A stretch of 47,007 nucleotides of DNA, from assembly GCF_024691275.1 (NCBI RefSeq), contig NZ_JAILNU010000006.1, positions 1 to 47,007 on the forward strand, in the 5' to 3' direction. Origin of the DNA: Ruminococcus sp. GTDB lineage: Bacteria > Bacillota > Clostridia > Oscillospirales > Ruminococcaceae. Within the stretch, counting starts at the first letter, position 1, and each line of letters opens with the position of its first letter. The notes below the pieces were generated by a model. That model ran no database searches and was not told the DNA's origin. It saw only the letters and a list, made by a program, of their open reading frames with translations. Below are positions 504-7,650 of this stretch, one piece after another. The position numbers and the translations under genes were made by a program.

Positions 504-533
504 GATTCCCTGTGGCGATTGCTACAGGGAATC
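504..533 (+). terminator. Hairpin after the recombinase-like gene
   Basis: A 10-bp perfect stem (GATTCCCTGT with its complement, 10-base loop) starts 25 bases after the stop at 479. The 3' side runs into ACTTTGT, a weak U-tract, so termination is probable but not strong. The rest of 480-704 shows nothing else I can support. Confidence 0.5.
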
Positions 534-1235: not shown

Positions 1236-1403
1236 CAAGTATCACTCCTTGATCGATAATTGAGGTTGGATGCAGCTACAGTGCATTCTGTGTATGACTG
1301 TAAGCAGATGCCTCTTACAATTGATGCTAGCAGAATCAGGGGGTCTTCAGAGCCTCTGTACTGGTACTTTCAGCATTCGCCTATGATAGTTTTCATACAT
1401 CAT

Positions 1404-3143
1404 TTAGAAATCAGTCATCATATCCTTGATCTTCTGGATATATCTCTCAAGACTCGCTTTAACTTCCTCAAACACGTTACAACGAGAGCTTCTCCAGTCT
1501 CCCCACCTATACGATTCCTGACCATCGTATCCATTCTTACATTGTTCATTCTGTTCATCCATACGCTCCAACTCTTTGTTCATTTCATCAATCGCACCAG
1601 CAAGTTGTTGGCTTTCGGCATACTCCTTCATCTTCTTACCGTGTTCTTGTATACTGCTATCTGCGGTCGAATAAGTATAATTCTTTGGTAAGCTGTTAGC
1701 GAATTTATTGATTTCGGCTCCTACCTCTCCTATCCATTGTAACAAAGCAAATGATAGCTCGGATGCACTGAATGAATGTTCTTGATTGATCTCTTGTTCC
1801 TCTATTTGGCCTTGTTCTAATACATCATATAGCTTATCAAGCTTACTGAGTTCGGGTTCAATCAACATAGGCAACTCGGTATACAGTCGATATGAAGCAT
1901 TGTTAAAGTGGTTTTCGATGTACGATTCCATATATGATTGGGCAACGCTTTCTCGTTCATACTCATTATTACAGAACAATTGTATCATATCTTCGTTAAC
2001 AACAGTTTCATGTATCAGTGAACTCAGATCCAGTGAGATTATCAATTCCATAAGTTCTTCTATGTATCTCTTAGTACATCGATATTGTTCAATGTAGTCT
2101 TGGATAAACCTACTATAGATCAATTCTTGAATCTCGCTATGGGAATACCTACTACCTGACGCCTCATTCCTCTTGTAGTATACACGATAGTTAGAGTCTT
2201 TAGGAGCCTTGATCATATCCGACATGTCAATATTGGGGTAAAGAACTTGTGATTTGTACTTCATTGACGGAATGCATATACTTGGAGGAACAAGAATGTC
2301 ATCGATAATGTGCCATCCTAAAGTATTATCTAAGTTCATGTCAACCTCATCAAATTTCTCATACTTGCTATCTAAGACAATGATGTATTTGAACTCGTGG
2401 TGATGCAGTCGCCTTCCTTCCCATTCACCTGTTATCATATTACGCCTGCCGTATAGGATTTGCAACAGTTCACGTTTCGAGTACTTATATAATTCCTTAA
2501 ATCTATAACGTAGATAACTATAGTCATTATAACAATCAATGTCAAATAGTAGTGGTATGAAGTTTTGGCAAAGAAGCTCATATATCTTTGTGGCCATGAC
2601 TGTTCCATACATATCATCTTTTTCAAGTAACTCCAACAACGGGATACTTCCAATTCTACATTCCTGATCCTGTTCACAACTAGTTGCTACCTGTGCTTCA
2701 CTGCAGCATACTACAATCTCACCATATGGAGCGTATGCACTTGGTGTTTTAAGTACTTCAAATGGTGAATCTGCCGTTCTTACATATGTATAGTTGTATC
2801 GTGGATTCAACACATCAACATTCTTGATGCCGACTGCCGAACAAAAATTAGCTATGCAGTGAAGATCATCGAAATCCTTACTTGTGGGGTCAAACATGAC
2901 CTCAGTGCCAGGGCGATTAACAAAAGTGAGCCCAAATATTTCCATAAGCTTAGCCTGATATGTAGGAGTAAATCTAAGTTCATCCATAAAGCCTGTGCCA
3001 TGTCTGCCCTTACAGATTGTCTTTACATTACTATTATTCTCATCAACATAAAAGTTAACATGTTTGACGCCGTAGATATCTTTCATCAGTGTTTCGAGGC
3101 ACTCCATCTTTACACTTTCATGTTCACTCATCTGCTTACTCAT
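1404..3143 (-). CDS. Unrecognised 579-residue protein of the mobile element
   Basis: I do not recognise this family. It is a soluble-looking protein with no signal peptide or membrane segment. The first 130 residues read as mixed alpha/beta; the middle is rich in Tyr and Asp, with an RLHHHEF stretch near residue 245; the last 250 residues are acidic and helical, with Glu-rich segments suggesting coiled coil, and end in a helical tail. The start is secure: AGGAGG lies 6 bases before ATG. A perfect 27-bp palindrome lies immediately upstream of that ribosome site, so expression is probably repressor-controlled. It is transcribed away from the replication operon, toward the DnaQ-like exonuclease. 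It could be a cargo or defence protein, a replication accessory or a regulator; the sequence does not decide. Confidence 0.8.
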   Translation of the reverse strand: MSKQMSEHESVKMECLETLMKDIYGVKHVNFYVDENNSNVKTICKGRHGTGFMDELRFTPTYQAKLMEIFGLTFVNRPGTEVMFDPTSKDFDDLHCIANFCSAVGIKNVDVLNPRYNYTYVRTADSPFEVLKTPSAYAPYGEIVVCCSEAQVATSCEQDQECRIGSIPLLELLEKDDMYGTVMATKIYELLCQNFIPLLFDIDCYNDYSYLRYRFKELYKYSKRELLQILYGRRNMITGEWEGRRLHHHEFKYIIVLDSKYEKFDEVDMNLDNTLGWHIIDDILVPPSICIPSMKYKSQVLYPNIDMSDMIKAPKDSNYRVYYKRNEASGSRYSHSEIQELIYSRFIQDYIEQYRCTKRYIEELMELIISLDLSSLIHETVVNEDMIQLFCNNEYERESVAQSYMESYIENHFNNASYRLYTELPMLIEPELSKLDKLYDVLEQGQIEEQEINQEHSFSASELSFALLQWIGEVGAEINKFANSLPKNYTYSTADSSIQEHGKKMKEYAESQQLAGAIDEMNKELERMDEQNEQCKNGYDGQESYRWGDWRSSRCNVFEEVKASLERYIQKIKDMMTDF

Positions 3144-3155
3144 ACTATACCTCCT

Positions 3156-3182
3156 GTACGTTCGGAAAGTTTCCGAACGTAC
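3156..3182. promoter_or_regulatory. Perfect 27-bp palindrome, probable operator
   Basis: Two 13-bp arms (GTACGTTCGGAAA and its exact complement) flank one central base. It ends 4 bases before the AGGAGG of the 579-residue gene and lies 41 bases from the -35 of the divergent plus-strand promoter. A dimeric repressor bound here could block the minus-strand transcript; in RNA it could also fold as a hairpin beside the ribosome site. No gene for a conventional repressor is visible in the part of the element seen. Confidence 0.7.
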
Positions 3183-3223: not shown

Positions 3224-3251
3224 TTGTTAAGCAAGTAGTTTATAATATAAT
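3224..3251 (+). promoter_or_regulatory. Sigma-A-like promoter of the element's replication operon
   Basis: TTGTTA at 3224, a 16-bp spacer, and TATAAT at 3246. It faces the small gene at 3417 and the helicase genes behind it and leaves a leader of about 160 bases in which I see no strong structure. Confidence 0.6.
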
Positions 3252-3416
3252 CATACCAAGCTGATACAGCGTATTCATTCTGTTATCTCTATGATAGCAG
3301 AAATCAAGGAGCAGGTAAAGGGTGTAAATGTAAACTTTGCCTCTCATTGGTCGAAGAAAACGCTGCACGCTGGCATAACACAAACCCATATACTATCACA
3401 AAGGAGGCGTATCTGT

Positions 3417-3614
3417 ATGGATACTAACAAAAAGAAACGTGACGTAACAAAGTCACAAACACGCGAGAGTAACACAAAAGAGCCGTCCAAGGCAAAGGCT
3501 TCATTGTTGGAAGCAACAGCAATGGGAATCGCATCAGGTCTTCCATTCGAGCTTGTTGAGCCTATAAATCTCGACGAGAACGAAGGTCCGGGACTGACCA
3601 TGATCGTATTCTAA
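3417..3614 (+). CDS. Small 65-residue protein of unknown function
   Basis: The frame could open at 3291, but AAGGAGG at 3401 sits 9 bases before the ATG at 3417, which is the supported start. The first 30 residues are basic and polar with many Lys, Thr and Ser and are probably disordered. The second half (ASLLEATAMGIASGLPFEL) looks like a short helix followed by an acidic turn and a hydrophobic end, LTMIVF. I recognise no domain. It is the first gene of the replication operon, with 26 bases to the SF3 helicase gene, so a regulatory or replication-accessory role is possible. Confidence 0.6.
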   Translation: MDTNKKKRDVTKSQTRESNTKEPSKAKASLLEATAMGIASGLPFELVEPINLDENEGPGLTMIVF

Positions 3615-3640: not shown

Positions 3641-5548
3641 ATGAATCCGAACGACAACTCGGCCAATAATGGCTTCACTGTCACATCGTCAGAAGGCATT
3701 TCTCAGGGAGCTGTGGAAGGTGGAACAACATCATCGGCGACAATTGTTCCTAAAGCTGATACAAGTAGCCCTCCATTAAGAATTGCTGGAGCTATAACTC
3801 CAGAAGGAGAAATAGTTCCTGTGCCTACTGATTCAACAATCCCTCGGTCGCCGTTTAACATTGTTAATCCTCTTACTAATGAGGTATTCATACAACTGAC
3901 AGGGCAATCTGATAATAGCACAGCTGCCACAGGTGTCACTGCTAATGCACCACCGTTGAGTGTAGGAGGCTCTCCTCCTACACAGCCACCGTTTCCTCAA
4001 CTTAGTTATGATGAGCGGAAAGCACTTGCTGAAACGACAACAGGCATCAGTGGCACAGCTGCAATGGGTGCCGTTGCCAATCCACCACCGATGAATGTAG
4101 GAAATCTACCTCCACCAAATAATCTTCCATACGTCAGCAGCACAGCTGTAACTGTAGCCACTGCTAACGCACCGCCGCTGACGATGAATGGAGTATACTA
4201 TCCTACAGCATCAGATTCTTACAGTTACATAAGGGACTCGCTCAATGACGAGCAACGATACGAAATAGAGCAAAAGCTCGTTAGGGAGCGTTGGATAGTT
4301 CTGTATAACTCGAAACCATATATGTTTTATAACAGGAGATATGTTCCGATCAATGACATACTTATCATACGTATGATTCTATGGATGATACATGTTACAT
4401 TCGGAATAGATCCTGAACCTATTGATGTTTGTCACAGTATCCTAAAATCAGCGATACCTCGTGCATTTCTTGTTACTGTTCAAGCAAACGATGATCGCTA
4501 CACTATCTTTATAAATGGTAGCTTTGATAACACAACAGGCGATTTTTATGAGAACCAAATTCCTGGAGACTACTTCCATACTATGATCGTCGAAGCAAAC
4601 TTTCTTGGTTTCGATGTTCAGCTTGATCACCCTGTTACAGATAAATTCTTCGGTACGATATCTGGTGGAGACACTCTTTTGATAGAGCTTCTTTATGAGG
4701 TTATCGGTTACTGCATCTCTCCTGATGCCAAAGCAAAGGCTATTTTCGTTCTCTATGGTCCTAACGGTGACAACGGCAAGTCAACCTTCCTGAGAATGCT
4801 TGAATCATTCATCTCTGATTCTGGAGTTGAACACAAGTCAATGAAGACGCTTCTCGGTGATAGATTTGCCATTGGCGAGCTAACCGACAAGAGGATAAAC
4901 ATCTCCGGTGACGAAGGCGCTGTAGATATAAGTAAAGATGCTATTGGTAAGCTGAAATCTCTATCAGGTGGTGATAAAATATCTGCACCTGTTAAGTTCC
5001 AGAATCAAGTAAAGGTTCAACCGTCCTGCAAGATTCTTATTGCCTCCAACTACAACATTGGCATGGCATACTCTGCAATAGATAAAGCTTTCGCTAGAAG
5101 GATCGTACCGATACCCTTCGATTATTCTGTTCCCAAGGATCAACAGGATCCATATCTATTGAATAAGCTGTTGGCTGAGCGAGATGCTGTTTGCACCGAA
5201 GCTATGAGGCATTACATGAAGCTTAAGAACAACAACTACAAGTTCACCAACAGGGACGCTTATCTACAGGAGTTGACATTCGGACCGAGTACACAGCCCT
5301 ACGAACTGGTACGTCAGTTCAGCAATGAGTACTGTGAGTTCACAAATCCTGAAACATTCATATACTCGCAAGAGTTATATGAGGCTTTCGTAAAAAAATA
5401 CGGTGGTGATGTGTTCAAAGACCTATCTGCCTTTTCACAAGCGTTCTACAAGACAAATGAGCATCGAGTAGATAAAGACAGAAAGCGCACAGGAAATATC
5501 AACCAACGTGGCTTCTACGGAGTCCGTCTAAAGGAGGTACTACAATGA
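3641..5548 (+). CDS. D5/P4-type SF3 helicase with repetitive Pro-rich N terminus
   Basis: A 635-residue replication helicase. The C-terminal half matches phage/plasmid P4-family primase-helicases: a D5_N-like region around residues 290-365, Walker A GPNGDNGKST at 373-382, an acidic Walker B context ISGDEGAVD near 421, sensor Asn in IASNYN near 469, and an Arg-finger-like FARR near 485. The first 195 residues instead hold four diverged copies of a low-complexity unit built on TANAPPLSVGG-like text (near residues 40, 100, 145 and 170), probably disordered. No archaeo-eukaryotic primase or Toprim motif is visible, so primer synthesis must come from elsewhere. AAGGAGG lies just before the ATG. 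It overlaps the next gene by 4 bases, indicating translational coupling. Expected role: unwinding at the element's origin. Confidence 0.85.
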   Translation: MNPNDNSANNGFTVTSSEGISQGAVEGGTTSSATIVPKADTSSPPLRIAGAITPEGEIVPVPTDSTIPRSPFNIVNPLTNEVFIQLTGQSDNSTAATGVTANAPPLSVGGSPPTQPPFPQLSYDERKALAETTTGISGTAAMGAVANPPPMNVGNLPPPNNLPYVSSTAVTVATANAPPLTMNGVYYPTASDSYSYIRDSLNDEQRYEIEQKLVRERWIVLYNSKPYMFYNRRYVPINDILIIRMILWMIHVTFGIDPEPIDVCHSILKSAIPRAFLVTVQANDDRYTIFINGSFDNTTGDFYENQIPGDYFHTMIVEANFLGFDVQLDHPVTDKFFGTISGGDTLLIELLYEVIGYCISPDAKAKAIFVLYGPNGDNGKSTFLRMLESFISDSGVEHKSMKTLLGDRFAIGELTDKRINISGDEGAVDISKDAIGKLKSLSGGDKISAPVKFQNQVKVQPSCKILIASNYNIGMAYSAIDKAFARRIVPIPFDYSVPKDQQDPYLLNKLLAERDAVCTEAMRHYMKLKNNNYKFTNRDAYLQELTFGPSTQPYELVRQFSNEYCEFTNPETFIYSQELYEAFVKKYGGDVFKDLSAFSQAFYKTNEHRVDKDRKRTGNINQRGFYGVRLKEVLQ

Positions 5549-7425: not shown

Positions 7426-7650
7426 ATGAAAAAGATGAACAGTATCAACGAAACTTATAAGCTCTGCTGTGAGCACAGTGTGGGCATAAGCAGAGGTTTA
7501 CTTCTCAATCTCGTTAACAGCGGTGAGATACCATGCGTTAAAGCCGGTCGCTCAACACTTGTTAACTGGGAGAAGCTCGTGGAATACCTTGACAATCATA
7601 CACTGCCGCCAAGTGATCCTGAGTCAAAAATCAGAAAGATCTCAGCCTGA
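7426..7650 (+). CDS. Excisionase-like HTH DNA-binding protein
   Basis: A 74-residue protein with the winged-helix layout of the excisionase/HTH_17 family: a helix with GISRGLLLNLVNSGEIPCVKAG, then the wing and VNWEKLVEYLD. Members bind DNA beside the attachment site and steer the integrase toward excision; some only regulate transcription. It sits 56 bases before the integrase gene, the usual place for xis. AGGAGG lies 7 bases before the ATG. The tail is short, polar and basic. Function is inferred from family and position. Confidence 0.8.
   Translation: MKKMNSINETYKLCCEHSVGISRGLLLNLVNSGEIPCVKAGRSTLVNWEKLVEYLDNHTLPPSDPESKIRKISA

Follow-up and report, generated by a model that had tools for sequence, protein, structure and literature searches.

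A fast-changing protein family at a fixed position in small integrative elements of Ruminococcus, with a possible role in immunity

What does a large protein of no known family do when its gene runs divergently from the replication operon of a mobile element, behind a perfect palindrome and next to a gene for a DnaQ-like exonuclease? This question is raised by a locus at the left end of a Ruminococcus contig, where a protein of 579 amino acids (aa; P0001) is encoded. An earlier note on this DNA had regarded P0001 and the exonuclease (P0002) as a repressed, paired module of defence or superinfection control. In the present analysis the locus was compared with related loci (designated by L numbers), and the position of the 579-aa gene and its counterparts is referred to as the slot.

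Organization of the Locus

The window, i.e. the whole stretch of DNA that was analysed, is an entire contig of 47,007 bases from a 3.4-Mb Ruminococcus genome (93% complete). Open reading frames (ORFs) were predicted mechanically, using the start codon that gave the longest frame; the start codons of L085, L089, and L091 are uncertain. Both minus-strand genes, the gap between them and their orientation away from the replication operon were recovered as the earlier note had described them (Table 1), and the primase, helicase, and integrase genes on the opposite strand agree, for the large protein, with its view of divergent cargo on a mobile element. The contig begins with a recombinase piece that matched Pfam Phage_integrase at E 0.12 only. 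Six of its eight best matches were recombinases located 3' of slot genes (E 9e-5 to 0.002), the others being L169 and L029, and a search of 59 other genomes yielded one weak match (E 5e-4). Because of this weak resemblance to slot-side recombinases, the gene order has probably been retained in the window, running from recombinase through passenger and slot gene to the replication operon.

Table 1. Features at the left end of the window and the basis of their assignment.
Feature	Coordinates	Strand	Basis and remarks
Tyrosine-recombinase-like protein, C-terminal piece, truncated by contig end	3..479	+	Similarity to recombinases 3' of slot genes
Terminator-like hairpin 3' of recombinase piece	504..533	+	Sequence scan
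DnaQ-like DEDDh 3'-5' exonuclease (P0002), 176 aa	705..1235	-	ATG start; RNase_T; alternative TTG start at 1238, one codon upstream
Gap between exonuclease and 579-aa genes	1236-1403		168 bp
579-aa slot family member (P0001)	1404..3143	-	ATG start; family by profile; matches no named family
AGGAGGT ribosome site abutting palindrome	3149..3155	-	Sequence reading
Perfect 27-bp palindrome in leader of 579-aa gene	3156..3182		13-bp arms, 1-nt centre
Promoter-like site TTGTTA-16-TATAAT, for divergent replication operon	3224..3251	+	Scan total of 12 sites against 10.1 expected, i.e. chance level
107-aa ORF, no function assigned, first of divergent operon	3291..3614	+	ORF call and family scans
P4-type primase/helicase, 635 aa	3641..5548	+	TIGR01613, E 1e-33
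Superfamily-2 type helicase, 612 aa	5545..7383	+	ResIII/DEAD/Helicase_C
Small protein, presumably excisionase-like	7426..7650	+	Size, position, and resemblance; 73% identical protein before L088 integrase
Tyrosine integrase, 496 aa	7677..9167	+	Domain-level matches below curated cut-offs; L088 integrase 78% identical

Between the N-terminal and the catalytic part of the window's integrase lies a LacI/XRE-like helix-turn-helix (approximately residues 154-224), the matches to LacI-type regulators being weak (NCBIfam, E 0.015 or worse). Three imperfect 50-nt repeats, which encode a repeated ANAPPL-like stretch, are located at 3918-4189 in the region of the primase gene that codes for the N-terminus. 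Attachment sites were sought as direct repeats of at least 14 bp between the two sides of the fetched stretches; none was found in 24 of 25 loci (all family loci except L131), and the single, chance-like repeat lies in the window.

An Unnamed Protein Family

As the earlier note had stated, the 579-aa protein resembles no known family: in Pfam, PHROGs, PADLOC, and NCBIfam nothing scored below E 0.03, and these profile scans likewise matched no structural or replication family. Among 5.8 billion proteins it has two close homologues at the sensitivity of that search, P0003 (73% identity; a protein named Ruminococcus sp.) and P0004 (57%), and among 99 relatives and 125 members of the genus a homologue of this level was found only in its own genome. 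The wider family was reached through gene position, since proteins encoded divergently from related primases were large unknowns with a similar start. One of them, a 640-aa protein of L024, matched P0001 collinearly at both ends with each score being borderline. Further members were found with profiles from two other pairs, and their contexts were then fetched.

Profiles built without P0001 matched it significantly. A hidden Markov model (HMM) of 20 relatives excluding P0001, P0003, and P0004 recovered these three at E 1.9e-10, 2.7e-10, and 2.6e-12, respectively, with the best decoy (300 shuffles, four reversed sequences, and other ORFs) at E 0.034. When the closest relative, L024, was removed as well, the values were 2.5e-5, 8.7e-5, and 1.7e-6, with a best decoy of 0.04. 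Profile-profile comparison gave a probability of 97.1 (E 5.5e-11), and without L024 one of 78.1 (E 1.8e-5) over 80 N-terminal columns. These profile comparisons show P0001 to be a member of a highly divergent family that has so far not been named.

Family members are mostly 476-689 aa long. A protein search with ten members as query, in which up to 7,999 candidates were scored, returned at least 33 proteins at E ≤ 0.001, and with 23 sequences as query the family was detected in 24 of 125 genomes of the genus, own genome included and some by fragments only. Among 391 class-wide genomes, with at most the best three candidates scored per genome, it was present in at least two, namely the own genome and one marginal case (6.8e-4). 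At E 1e-3 none of 23 members matched a model of PHROGs, NCBIfam, or PADLOC, the latter covering anti-phage defence; no convincing Pfam match was obtained either, three single-member matches lying at E 0.001-0.01. Literature listings and the openings of abstracts contained no description of the family. The slot protein of L031 (6880-8949) is a fusion with a separate domain; its last approximately 100 aa match a stretch in 929-1177 aa frames from 11 other genomes as well as the end of the L092 slot protein.

The structure of a relative, P0021, was modelled with 35 sequences (pLDDT 79.8, pTM 0.73) and consists largely of helices, its short strands being concentrated in the first 300 residues. A fold search with this model gave no confident match, the residues before approximately 208 being hardly covered; the slot family matched no DNA-binding domain family, and the fold comparison bears on this point chiefly from about residue 208 on. 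Invariant positions in the family alignment A5 are R6, N84, Y88, F89, and P304, of which P0001 itself lacks the R. A conserved set of catalytic residues was not seen in the family alignment.

A Fixed Place in Several Types of Elements

The 26 family loci (the window, L024, L031, L032, L034, L035, L082-L096, and L127-L131) were gathered by homology and from fetched contexts and do not represent a census. In all 24 loci that could be assessed (the contigs of L129 and L131 end too soon) the slot gene runs divergently from a primase operon (n = 17) or a large ORF (n = 7). In the primase group, to which the window with its replication operon belongs, the slot gene is divergent either immediately or with a small ORF or an integrase gene in between. 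The large ORFs of the other group (L087, L088, L091, L094, L127, L128, and L130) encode 660-1027 aa; among the four scanned, coupling-protein domains were found above the Pfam cut-off in L088 and L091 and below it in L127, and none in L094. The 3' side of the slot carries an amidoligase-like and/or a GATase gene in 19 of the 26 loci, often together with a recombinase (L024 by eye). The amidoligase and class-II GATase form a set, present with one or both genes in L031 (1082-3346) and 18 further loci, with median pair identities of 78 and 73%.

Related elements without the family hold other genes at this position: a type I restriction R subunit in L023 (PADLOC E 4e-292), an AAA-type ATPase in L027 (AAA_14 E 1e-4, below its cut-off), and further genes in L026, L033, and L159, whose products have no detectable relation to the family. 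The slot proteins of L033 (7333-8904) and L159 (3543-4961), which are 29% identical and encoded divergently from primase operons, constitute a second unnamed family. Twenty further primase loci, many of which are phages or other elements as judged by eye, contained no family member. Gene order in these loci shows that small integrative elements of several types in the genus carry the family at one and the same position.

Two kinds of repeats were observed near the slot. Directly after the slot stop codon of L087, L088, and L128 lie the inverted ends TTACGTTTTT ... AAAAACGTAA, approximately 90 bp apart and with a variable middle; they are imperfect in L127 and weaker in L129 and L130. A sequence of approximately 100 bp with TGTCCA repeats and a hairpin is present in up to three copies between the tyrosine recombinase and the slot gene (L092 5331-5448, 6140-6253, and 6949-7049 in oriented coordinates; near the recombinase in L090 and L031). 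Small genes sit between its copies, like the sites of a gene-cassette array, and as a lead the repeats of L031, L090, and L092 may be considered candidate integron-like sites.

Exchange and Rate of Change

Identities of the individual genes were determined pairwise for 20 of the 26 loci. The median was approximately 23% for the slot protein, 29% for the relaxase, 34% for the primase, 72% for the second integrase, 73% for the GATase, and 78% for the amidoligase. Within pairs, the neighbour was more conserved than the slot protein in 100 of 105 comparisons for the primase, 66 of 78 for the relaxase, 44 of 45 for the second integrase, and all comparisons for the GATase (n = 78), the amidoligase (n = 45), the window-type integrase (n = 6), the Xis-like protein (n = 3), and the window-type primase and helicase (n = 1 each). 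Only the coupling-type ORF deviated, being more conserved in one of three pairs, with the slot protein better conserved in the other two. The primases of L092/L093 are 91% and those of L031/L090 87% identical, with slot proteins of 27% identity in either pair. L035 and L090 share 89% identity in the amidoligase, 90% in the GATase, 80% in the primase, and 20% in the slot protein, and the window and L088 share 78% in the integrase, 73% in Xis, and 20% in the slot protein.

On the DNA level, 7 of 14 pairs (L092/L093, L031/L090, L031/L093, L035/L090, L031/L035, L082/L096, and L085/L096) are similar on both sides, with a break over the slot gene and the 27-600 bp preceding it. In four pairs (L031/L032, L083/L086, L083/L095, and L086/L095) similarity extends across a large part or the whole of the slot, L088/L128 is intermediate, and in L032/L093 as well as window/L088 the match is confined to the operon side. 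The opposite situation was found in L086/L095 and L087/L088, where the slot gene is young (NG86 dS 0.35 and 0.45) and the neighbours are saturated or have a dS > 2. Swaps within conserved flanks and young slot genes beside old neighbours thus show, as far as gene comparisons go, that the slot gene moves independently of its surroundings and has been exchanged between elements separately from the flanking genes.

The dN/dS ratio was 0.26-0.48 for the slot gene (five pairs), 0.13-0.22 for the relaxase and 0.06-0.25 for MobC (three pairs each), and 0.06-0.07 for the primase and 0.12-0.14 for the integrase (one measurable pair each). By these measures the slot gene changes faster than most of its neighbours; positive selection is not implied, as dN/dS stays below 1. 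P0001 and P0003 show one difference in approximately the last 130 residues and 40-95% identity per 40-column window before them. This pattern possibly reflects recombination inside the gene that produced a mosaic allele, a reading weakened by the finding that the C-terminus is the better conserved part also between P0001 and P0004.

The Leader Palindrome

The perfect 27-bp palindrome that had been noted at the ribosome site was found to adjoin it directly. Perfect arms of 13 bp are expected approximately 0.0007 times per 47 kb (arithmetic for equal base frequencies). In the 3.4-Mb genome a single perfect match to the 17-bp core was found, none with one mismatch and three with two, and since a backward control of the core also totals four matches, only the perfect one stands out. 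As RNA, the leader has a folding energy of -19.6 kcal/mol, with a z of -4.3 relative to 200 shuffled sequences.

An inverted repeat with TTCCGA/TCGGAA or TTTCGA/TCGAAA halves is found within approximately 45 nt upstream of the start codon in 7 of the 26 loci (the window, L035, L083, L086, L094, L095, and L096), three of which (L083, L086, and L095) are close relatives. Its density, 8 matches in 7,417 bases of intergenic DNA compared with 1 match in the remaining 437,474 bases of these loci, refers to a pattern selected after inspection of the window palindrome, and none of the five loci added once the pattern was fixed (L127-L131) carries it. A general excess of inverted repeats in slot leaders was rejected, as repeats of any sequence at p ≤ 0.05 were not enriched (6 of 26 slot leaders against 19 of 108 control leaders) and enrichment was confined to the specific pattern. 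The leader repeat may act as an operator in the DNA or as a hairpin in the RNA, and both readings fit.

Candidate Functions of the Slot Protein

The reading that we favour, tentatively and as something less than probable, is that the slot protein is an element-borne immunity factor of variable specificity, serving either phage defence or the exclusion of rival elements. From the earlier note's proposal of a defence or superinfection-control module it retains the gene, whose anatomy fits such a role, and drops the exonuclease as a second component. Because no catalytic residue set was seen conserved, the protein would bind a variable foreign partner rather than act by catalysis, and its level would be kept low and self-adjusting by the palindrome or hairpin in the leader. 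The fixed place, block exchange, fast change, possible mosaics, and missing catalytic set would fit a binding protein with a changing partner. An immunity function is also favoured by the type I restriction subunit (L023) or AAA-type ATPase (L027) at the slot of related elements. On the other hand, only one of the slot alternatives is a clear defence gene, the dN/dS of MobC reaches 0.25 and thus about the lower value of the slot gene, and the median identities of primase and relaxase are not far from that of the slot protein. With neither a conserved catalytic set nor a confident fold match, nothing direct points to defence. More doubtful is the fuller proposal that the slot proteins form a new hypervariable class of immunity proteins, swapped as a single-gene block, shuffled internally, changing in their recognition of phages or rival elements, and partly under a shared leader palindrome. 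Should the slot protein prove to be an immunity factor, a fibre-degrading gut and rumen genus would have in its mobile elements a rapidly changing one that has so far gone undescribed and escapes current defence databases. Natural slot swaps in similar backbones (e.g., L092 and L093) make the recognition target directly testable by allele exchange.

The main and strongest rival, in itself rather unlikely, is an immunity-type regulator that would bind the palindrome and intergenic sites, repress its own gene and the divergent operon, and vary against cross-repression as phage repressors do. It would account for the shared intergenic region between divergent genes in all 24 assessable loci, for the occurrence of a related leader repeat in 7 of 26 loci across subfamilies of approximately 20% identity, for the single perfect palindrome core in the genome, and for exchanged blocks that take in nearly the whole intergenic region in L035/L090, L031/L090, and L092/L093. 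However, the intergenic region is conserved to 27-81 bp from the slot gene in L082/L096 and L085/L096, with slot proteins of 22 and 33% identity, and the control region of the operon therefore need not change with the slot protein. Furthermore, 19 of the 26 leaders, including all five of the later-added loci, lack the motif, the family matched no DNA-binding family, and the slot protein is far larger than the usual repressors.

Still less probable is an accessory factor for replication or mobilisation of the elements, acting for example in origin binding, as a loader, or in DNA processing. The constant position beside replication or transfer genes is consistent with such a function, but the slot protein does not track the primase (27 against 91% identity, with the reverse case in L086/L095), its gene accompanies operons as different as primase plus relaxase, primase plus helicase, and a coupling-type ORF, and other genes take its place in L026, L033, and L159.

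The Exonuclease as a Candidate Passenger

The full DEDDh active site ascribed to P0002 was confirmed by eye (D8, E10, D91, H144, and D149) within an RNase_T domain (E 2.1e-21; PADLOC DEDDh model, E 3.8e-28), and domain and residues together identify the protein as a DEDDh exonuclease. Its pairing with the large protein did not survive the survey of homologues that the earlier note itself had proposed, as the exonuclease lies beside none of the 25 other family members. A tblastn search with P0002 against 34 loci (25 with the family, three of these on contigs under 7.5 kb) returned nothing below E 1. Relatives of P0002, 61-89% identical over the matched part, are present in 26 of 125 genomes of the genus including its own, and in none of 12 fetched contexts does the slot family adjoin them. 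These contexts share with the left end of the window only the exonuclease gene, the neighbours being variable; in G101 and G103 an element with a slot gene lies 9-16 kb from a P0002 relative on the same contig. Other small genes occupy the exonuclease position in L031 (233 and 178 aa), L090 (198 aa), and L092 (173, 276, and 154 aa). Six passenger genes were scanned against PADLOC, five of which had no match and one a match of E 0.0019 only.

A two-gene defence module of large protein and DEDDh exonuclease, as proposed earlier, is highly improbable on these grounds (missing exonuclease at other family loci, missing family in exonuclease contexts, and different genes at the exonuclease position in L031, L090, and L092), even though the two genes share a strand and are closely spaced in the window and candidate systems with a DEDDh domain exist in PADLOC, of which PDC-S48 matches the exonuclease domain only. 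From the gene neighbourhoods, the exonuclease is best read as a probable passenger between slot gene and recombinase. In L148-L153, P0002 relatives are close to a further gene cluster that includes an integrase and is common to several genomes of the genus, so that the exonuclease, too, may be carried by mobile DNA.

Comparison with Known Systems

With the DnaQ family of DEDDh exonucleases P0002 shares the RNase_T domain and the active-site residues, but it is a stand-alone protein of 176 aa, and longer models match its exonuclease domain only and below their cut-offs. The pairing of protein and exonuclease at a single locus was misleading and was resolved by comparing loci.

Many hosts of the slot family have the gene content of integrative mobilizable elements, with a tyrosine integrase, a primase, a MobA-type relaxase, and a small protein without Pfam match that we take to be MobC-like. 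The element in the window differs in having a primase, helicase, excisionase-like protein, and integrase (relaxase search to 9.2 kb). Phage satellites and integrative elements of the P2/P4 and PICI type have hotspots for defence or accessory genes. Like the slot, these hotspots have a fixed position in a mobile element and exchange their content block-wise between conserved flanks. They differ from the slot in that many of its occupants belong to one homologous, hyperdivergent family (in a homology-collected and thus biased census) which is absent from PADLOC.

Phage immunity regions consist of a repressor plus its operators. They resemble the slot in the divergent gene, the operator-like palindrome, and the replacement as a block, whereas the slot protein has 476-689 aa and matches no DNA-binding family, and the control region is conserved in some pairs. 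An immunity protein class of the kind considered here would be the protein-level counterpart of such a swappable immunity region.
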